A DNA stretch of 64,000 bases, taken from contig NC_021592.1 of the NCBI RefSeq assembly GCF_000152265.2, positions 992,001-1,056,000 of the forward strand, read 5' to 3'. The position numbers and the translations under genes are program-made. This DNA comes from Ferroplasma acidarmanus Fer1 (GTDB lineage: Archaea; Thermoplasmatota; Thermoplasmata; Thermoplasmatales; Thermoplasmataceae). Under the pieces are notes generated by a model. That model was not told where the DNA came from. It worked only from the letters and a program-made list of their open reading frames with translations, and searched no databases. Shown piece after piece: positions 23,352-24,494 of the stretch. Position 1 is the stretch's first letter; each line of letters starts with the position of its first letter.

Positions 23352-23424
23352 GGGGCTGTGGGGTAGCTTGGCATCCTACGGGCTTTGGGAGCCTGAGACT
23401 CCGATTCAAATTCGGGCAGCCCCA
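23352..23424 (+). tRNA. tRNA-Pro (anticodon TGG)
   Basis: Acceptor GGGGCTG/CAGCCCC with discriminator A, D-arm GGGTAGCTTGGCATCC, anticodon stem CGGGC/GCCTG around loop TTTGGGA (anticodon TGG), T-arm TCCGA/TCGGG with loop TTCAAAT. 73 nt, no intron, CCA not encoded. A T run (CATTTTTATTT) follows and would serve as terminator. Confidence 0.95.
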
Positions 23425-23557: not shown

Positions 23558-24064
23558 TTAAACTAATCCCCAGACTATCCAGTTATCTGGAAACTTTATA
23601 TTTGTAGCTCTATAATATAAAGCCAATTCGCCCTCGTGAAAAATCTCATGTTCGGTTATCATACCCGTCAACTGTAATGGGCTAATATTTCTGAAGTTTT
23701 CTCCGAGATATTTCATAGAGGGAGTACAATCTATCCACTTATCTGAAACTTTCTGGCTGCTATATGTCAGAACCATACTGGAGAATTCCTCCATAACGCA
23801 TTTCAGCTCTTCTAGCAGTTCCTGTTTATTATTTTCCAGCAAATGGTTAATATCTTTCCTATAAAAGTCAAGGGTTCCAGATTGTAAAGCATCTAAATAA
23901 GAATTTCTAACGTCCAGTATATGCCTGAATTGTTTACCGAATGATCCCGAATTTTTTATCGGGATAATTTCAAGACATTCTGAATCAATAGATTCCAGTG
24001 CGCTATGAATTAAACCTCCGTGAAATCTTAAAGTTTTAACCATTTCCCGTAACGAAATGCCCAT
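23558..24064 (-). CDS. DinB-family four-helix-bundle protein
   Basis: A 168-residue protein of the DinB/YfiT superfamily. Metal-site histidines typical of the family are visible: FRHILDVRNSYLDAL (near residue 47) and ITEHEIFHEGELALYYR (near 138-143). Such proteins are metal-dependent thiol-S-transferases or of unknown function; no particular thiol cofactor is evident. It is convergent with tRNA-Pro and stands alone. Confidence 0.75.
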   Translation of the reverse strand: MGISLREMVKTLRFHGGLIHSALESIDSECLEIIPIKNSGSFGKQFRHILDVRNSYLDALQSGTLDFYRKDINHLLENNKQELLEELKCVMEEFSSMVLTYSSQKVSDKWIDCTPSMKYLGENFRNISPLQLTGMITEHEIFHEGELALYYRATNIKFPDNWIVWGLV

Positions 24065-24175: not shown

Positions 24176-24183
24176 TTATAAAT
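24176..24183 (+). promoter_or_regulatory. TATA box for the box C/D sRNA candidate
   Basis: TTATAAAT, with its last base 26 bases before the first base of the predicted RNA (24209), the expected archaeal distance. Confidence 0.55.
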
Positions 24184-24208
24184 TTAATATACAATAAAAT
24201 CATAAAGA

Positions 24209-24276
24209 TATACCGCTATGATGATATTTACAAATAAATGATTTGATGATTAATGACGGGCAAGCTGAGCGGTATA
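24209..24276 (+). ncRNA. Box C/D guide sRNA candidate
   Basis: A 68-nt unit with every element of an archaeal box C/D sRNA in order: terminal stem TATACCGC (24209-24216) pairing exactly with GCGGTATA (24269-24276); box C ATGATGA (24218-24224); a 13-nt spacer; a possible D' ATGA (24238-24241); box C' TTGATGA (24243-24249); a 15-nt guide (24250-24264); box D CTGA (24265-24268). An archaeal TATA box sits 26 bases upstream and a T-rich stretch follows. It does not overlap a protein gene. The D guide is complementary to 16S rRNA GCCCGUCA in the decoding centre. Confidence 0.75.
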
Positions 24277-24284
24277 AAATTTAT

Positions 24285-24494
24285 TTATTCTTTTTTATAG
24301 AATGAACTTACTTCTAATCTGTCCCCATTATGGTCATAAACATACAATTTGCCATCTTCGTCTACGGTCTTCATATGGTGTCCATCACAATATGGTTTAT
24401 TTTCCGACAGGCCACATGCACATATATGAACCTCTTTATCGCCTACCTTTACCATATATGGTTTGTCCCTTTCATGCAAAACAATTCTAGACAT
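24285..24494 (-). CDS. CDGSH iron-sulfur domain protein
   Basis: A 69-residue protein with one CDGSH motif: CACGLSENKPYCDGHH gives C-x-C-x2-S-x3-P-x-C-D-G-x-H, the three Cys and one His that bind a [2Fe-2S] cluster. Soluble, single-motif prokaryotic type; likely redox or Fe-S-cluster handling. Convergent with the C/D sRNA candidate. Confidence 0.93.
   Translation of the reverse strand: MSRIVLHERDKPYMVKVGDKEVHICACGLSENKPYCDGHHMKTVDEDGKLYVYDHNGDRLEVSSFYKKE

Follow-up and report, generated by a model that had tools for sequence, protein, structure and literature searches.

A candidate box C/D guide sRNA of Thermoplasmata with predicted pairing to the C1402 region of 16S rRNA

The window analysed here, a stretch of 64,000 nucleotides from Ferroplasma acidarmanus Fer1, holds a short intergenic segment with box C/D motifs inside a terminal stem, raising the question of whether it encodes a guide RNA and, if so, which nucleotide that RNA would mark. 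The segment lies between a DinB-family ORF (23558-24064, minus strand) and a CDGSH iron-sulfur ORF (24285-24494, minus strand), and the preliminary description had read it as an unannotated, free-standing 68-nt C/D sRNA with a promoter. Its features are collected in Table 1. The convergent gene of the CDGSH protein ends 8 nt past the 3' end of the sRNA, and in the window's genus most genomes likewise have this neighbour downstream of the sRNA.

Table 1. Features of the sRNA locus (coordinates are those of the window)
Feature	Position	Strand	Basis
tRNA-Pro(UGG), ancestral upstream neighbour of the sRNA	23352-23424	+	Rfam; layout in relatives
TATA box TTATAAAT, presumed promoter	24176-24183	+	Sequence; TATA-like element in relatives
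Box C/D guide sRNA, complete unit, 68 nt	24209-24276	+	Sequence, relatives, shuffles
Terminal stem, 5' strand TATACCGC	24209-24216	+	Pairs with 24269-24276; covariation in relatives
Box C ATGATGA (RTGATGA)	24218-24224	+	Homologue comparison
Decayed D' guide region, A+T-rich, without conserved target	24225-24237	+	Guide of relatives against 16S rRNA
Box D' ATGA, degenerate CTGA	24238-24241	+	Homologue comparison
Box C' ATGATTA	24246-24252	+	Homologue comparison
D guide ATGACGGGCAAG, 12 nt	24253-24264	+	Pairing with 16S rRNA, covariation
Box D CTGA	24265-24268	+	Homologue comparison
Terminal stem, 3' strand GCGGTATA	24269-24276	+	Sequence; covariation

As had been described, box C and box D lie inside a perfect 8-bp terminal stem that is read directly from the sequence. 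The internal boxes D' and C' are also present; the window's genus has degenerate forms of both, most other genera the canonical ones. Box C' had been given as TTGATGA, and these letters do occur at 24243-24249; its register is nevertheless three bases off, as the relatives conserve ATGATTA, and box D', absent from that description, was added from the relatives. With C' as ATGATTA and D' as ATGA, the D'-C' spacer is 4 nt and the D guide has its canonical 12 nt. The C'-to-D spacing in archaeal box C/D sRNAs is 10-12 nt (PMC3608112). The boxes, the stem, the spacing, the complementarity at D+5 and the fibrillarin and Nop5 genes of the genome, all features of an archaeal box C/D guide sRNA, were found.

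The full C/D'/C'/D descriptor with a stem of at least 5 bp matched once in the window and in none of 100 dinucleotide shuffles, as did a looser C..D descriptor with a stem of at least 7 bp (one match; 0/100), and the sRNA folds more stably than its shuffles (z = -2.47). An Rfam search of the window returned the tRNA-Pro as its sole hit; the sRNA fell below the cutoff of every family, sR12 included. Its sub-threshold matches spread over many C/D families and track the boxes rather than the guides, with scores well under the cutoffs for sR11 (24.7 bits against 39), sR20 (23.3 against 44) and SNORD11B (25.5 against 50).

Conservation extends far beyond the species. Nucleotide search detected the sRNA in 12 of 61 genomes, a count that includes the window's own; a covariance model built from those 12 recovered it from 58 of 77 genomes of the family (33 of the 35 best assemblies), and with a broader model it was seen in 96 of the order's 117 genomes (47 of its 51 best assemblies). 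Within the window's own genus, the covariance-model searches gave no match in one genome of 96% completeness (G006). Two copies were observed in G083 (matches L126 and L135). A pattern scan of GTDB recovered at least 119 stretches in Thermoplasmatales, Methanomassiliicoccales, Aciduliprofundum/DHVE2 and unplaced Thermoplasmata, matches that show spread and not frequency, since the pattern required the guide core; among them is Acidiplasma aeolicum (L304), whose sRNA is the same as in genus g18. The predicted sRNA is thus kept across the class Thermoplasmata.

All 59 homologues that were read out possess boxes C, D', C' and D and a 12-nt D guide, with a C-D' spacing of 11-15 nt. Box D is CTGA in every one, and box C is RTGATGA apart from one RTGATGT. 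Box D' reads ATGA in g1, g18 and g19 and CTGA in the other genera, and box C' is identically ATGATTA in g1, g18 and g19 and RTGATGN in nearly all other genera. The terminal stem covaries through compensatory changes, with 96.8% of cells paired. Loss of the stem and boxes in close relatives, which the preliminary description had named as a sign against its reading, was not seen; the retained boxes, stem, spacing and D guide support a free-standing intergenic C/D sRNA of 68 nt.

The preliminary description had named no target; the follow-up assigns one in 16S rRNA. Positions 4-11 of the D guide, counted from box D, pair with GCCCGUCA over 8 bp, which places guide position 5 (D+5) opposite position 1341 of this genome's 16S rRNA. 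From the conserved segment CACACCGCCCGUC, we take this nucleotide to be the equivalent of E. coli C1402. It ranks first or second of approximately 4360 rRNA positions in each of the nine genomes having both rRNAs. The uninterrupted duplex in the window's own genome is no longer than 8 bp, guide positions 2 and 3 each placing an A against a C, and the C1402 equivalent is slightly outscored there by one 23S site; a 23S target was rejected, as its best site varies between genera. Another RNA carrying TGCCYGTCA was also sought: the motif occurs at 19 genomic places, one of which is the sRNA gene itself, and at the other 18 loci Rfam finds two tRNAs, both off the match.

Guide positions 2-3 are purines (AA, AG or GA) opposite two rRNA C residues throughout the 59 homologues. 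GG at these positions, although fully pairing, never occurs in the window's family and is present in Aciduliprofundum/DHVE2 genomes. A-C pairing in an acidic cytoplasm was considered for these positions and is not claimed.

The assignment is borne out by covariation between guide and rRNA. In all 26 of the 26 genomes compared, guide position 7 is complementary to 16S base 1404, as G-C in 20 and A-U in six. The core of the D guide is GACAGGC in g12, g15 and g19, in place of GACGGGC; all six genomes of these three genera with readable 16S rRNA have U instead of C at base 1404, and GCCUGUCA is their counterpart of GCCCGUCA. In a tree of 16S segments from which the columns at issue had been removed, well-supported branches force three origins of the change at 1404, and at each event guide and rRNA changed together, each to the base predicted by pairing. 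A sign test on these events gives p = 0.25, three being too few for significance. Along with 1404, base 1497 turns from G to A (29 of 29 genomes), which keeps the h44 pair 1404-1497. Such co-change of guide and rRNA in three lineages is direct evolutionary evidence for the assigned target, and the comparative evidence that the predicted D guide addresses 16S rRNA is strong.

The near-universal segment CACACCGCCCGTC reads CACACCGCCTGTC in g12, g15 and g19, with the matching G-to-A at 1497, and primers on this segment would mismatch there. The variant was seen in the 16S loci L145 (G019), L137 (G026) and L151 (G022) and in segments of G067, G080 and G081.

A 2'-O-methyl group at C1402 or the corresponding nucleotide has been mapped in E. 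coli, P. abyssi (Cm1369), yeast, plants and human, a ribose methylation common to all three domains (PMC11542601). The sRNA most likely directs ribose methylation onto this nucleotide of the ribosomal decoding centre.

The D' guide has a different history. In other genera, its region reads TTCAGCCT... and pairs with h27 of 16S rRNA. A D' guide with TCAGCC is carried by g2, g4, g5, g7, g9-g13, g16, g17 and G087 (g14), and also by DHVE2 genomes among the matches listed in the GTDB scan; it pairs with GCAAGGCUGAA of h27 through up to 10 consecutive Watson-Crick pairs, placing D'+5 at about G902, and this site ranks first in the four tested genomes with such a guide. The D' region of the window's genus, like that of its sisters g18 and g19, is A+T-rich and has lost the h27 pairing, and 16S base 903 is A instead of G in these genera, through one event. 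The guide was also lost in g3, g6, g15 and G021, the rRNA of which keeps G903, so the target change and the guide loss are compatible, with causation not established. A guide role for the D' region of the window was rejected: no target recurs consistently, and the 9 bp that it matches in 16S rRNA are not kept in the relatives. With the D' guide decayed in the window's genus, the sRNA is now probably a single guide. In loci of Methanomassiliicoccales such as L210, L216, L248 and L255, the D guide core is kept and the D' guide differs (for example, TAAACCCAGCT or TCGTTTTTTCGAG), a pattern that resembles re-aiming of the second arm; the rRNAs of the window's genome hold no exact complement of that D' guide.

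Three other readings of the element have to be weighed. Its boxes are short and its region is A+T-rich, so that a chance arrangement or a decayed pseudogene might be suspected; the empty shuffles, together with order-wide conservation that includes compensatory changes in the stem and between guide and rRNA, already contradict this and make it exceedingly improbable. Judged by sequence comparison, the element is a real, previously uncatalogued box C/D guide sRNA. A real C/D sRNA might instead, or in addition, aim its D guide at the anticodon arm GCCUGUCG of tRNA-Asp(GUC), which came out best in the D+5 register when the 44 tRNAs of the genome were scanned. Positions 4-11 do pair with it in the window's genome, two G-U pairs included, and either G or A at guide position 7 could pair with U33. 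Such a target, however, offers no explanation for the agreement of position 7 with 16S base 1404 in every genome compared, and the ancestral D' guide targets 16S rRNA, not a tRNA. It would also put D+5 on nucleotide 31, which to our knowledge is not a ribose-methylated site of tRNA. The tRNA-Asp target is accordingly very unlikely.

Somewhat less remote, though still unlikely, is a function mainly as a folding chaperone that holds h44 (and ancestrally h27) of 16S rRNA during assembly, with methylation secondary. The ancestral sRNA has two 16S targets, and paired guides to distant 16S segments have been proposed to act in this way in other archaea (PMC4644070); yet the D guide has outlasted the h27 guide in several genera, and the D+5 register lands on a widely methylated nucleotide. 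It is highly probable that the locus encodes an archaeal box C/D methylation-guide sRNA with its own TATA promoter, the D guide of which addresses the 16S C1402 equivalent. A broader evolutionary proposal is more tentative and, in our estimate, rather doubtful: the ancestral sRNA would have been two-armed, addressing h27 and the base of h44; the guide would follow the rare C1404-G1497 changes as the second arm decays lineage by lineage; and the pairing itself might be selected besides the methyl mark.

How the sRNA is expressed can be traced from its neighbourhood. The TATA box noted upstream of the stem is present, at a distance of 25 nt and not 26. A TATA-like element lies 42-43 nt before box C in all six members of the window's genus in which tRNA-Pro does not abut the sRNA, namely G003, G005, G008, G076, the window and G001. 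In eight genomes, comprising g18, g19 and, within the window's genus, G002, G004 and G007, a mere 6-24 nt separate the end of tRNA-Pro(UGG) from box C, and no TATA element was found in these eight. The gap from tRNA-Pro to sRNA is 60-62 nt in G003, G005 and G008 and 787-793 nt in G076 and the window. Conservation of the TATA box in the relatives needing one thus supports the putative promoter proposed earlier; a sigma-70 promoter scan was set aside as inapplicable to archaea. In the window's species, the DinB-family ORF lies between tRNA-Pro and sRNA, a gap of about 60 nt or less in close relatives. A likely history runs from a joint tRNA-Pro/sRNA transcript through an independent promoter to insertion of the DinB-family gene between the two. 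tRNA-sRNA dicistrons are known in archaea, one of them with tRNA-Pro in Thermoproteus tenax (PMC7994747). The sister genomes resemble these in having the sRNA directly behind tRNA-Pro, whereas the window's species has an sRNA with its own TATA box and the DinB-family ORF between. The locus thus appears to show a tRNA-sRNA pair turning into a free-standing gene with its own promoter, as well as a dual guide becoming a single guide.

Transcription, RNP assembly and methylation are proposed here from sequence. Transcription of the sRNA would start from a TATA promoter of its own, the terminal stem would close the molecule, and L7Ae, Nop5 and fibrillarin would assemble on its C/D and C'/D' motifs. 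The genome encodes fibrillarin (PF01269, E = 1.2e-59) and Nop5 (PF01798, E = 2.5e-32), and the literature describes L7Ae as present in all archaea (PMC5539422). Once guide positions 4-11 had paired with GCCCGUCA, fibrillarin would methylate the ribose opposite position 5, the C1402 equivalent at the base of h44 in the decoding centre. Ancestrally, the sRNA would also have carried the D' guide for h27 (about G902), which decayed in the window's genus.

Few ribose methylations are common to bacteria, archaea and eukaryotes, and that of C1402 is one of them. For Thermoplasmata, the locus provides a concrete candidate for the gene of its guide, one that scores below the cutoff of every Rfam family. 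The best archaeal sub-threshold matches, the Pyrococcus C/D sRNAs sR11 and sR20, share its box layout and size but differ in their D guide sequences. For archaeal sR12 of Pyrococcus and Sulfolobus, the predicted target is the site that corresponds to the one guided by yeast snR70 (PMC3511168), making the window sRNA a putative functional counterpart of sR12 and SNORD43/snR70. Both sR12 and the window sRNA are C/D sRNAs with predicted 2'-O-methylation at the C1402 equivalent, assigned in the latter by pairing register and covariation only; sR12, however, is known from other archaeal groups. Eukaryotic SNORD43 (U43) and yeast snR70 likewise guide the equivalent 18S nucleotide (PMC3511168, PMC11542601), but are snoRNAs of eukaryotes, the homology of which with archaeal guides is unproven (PMC3511168).
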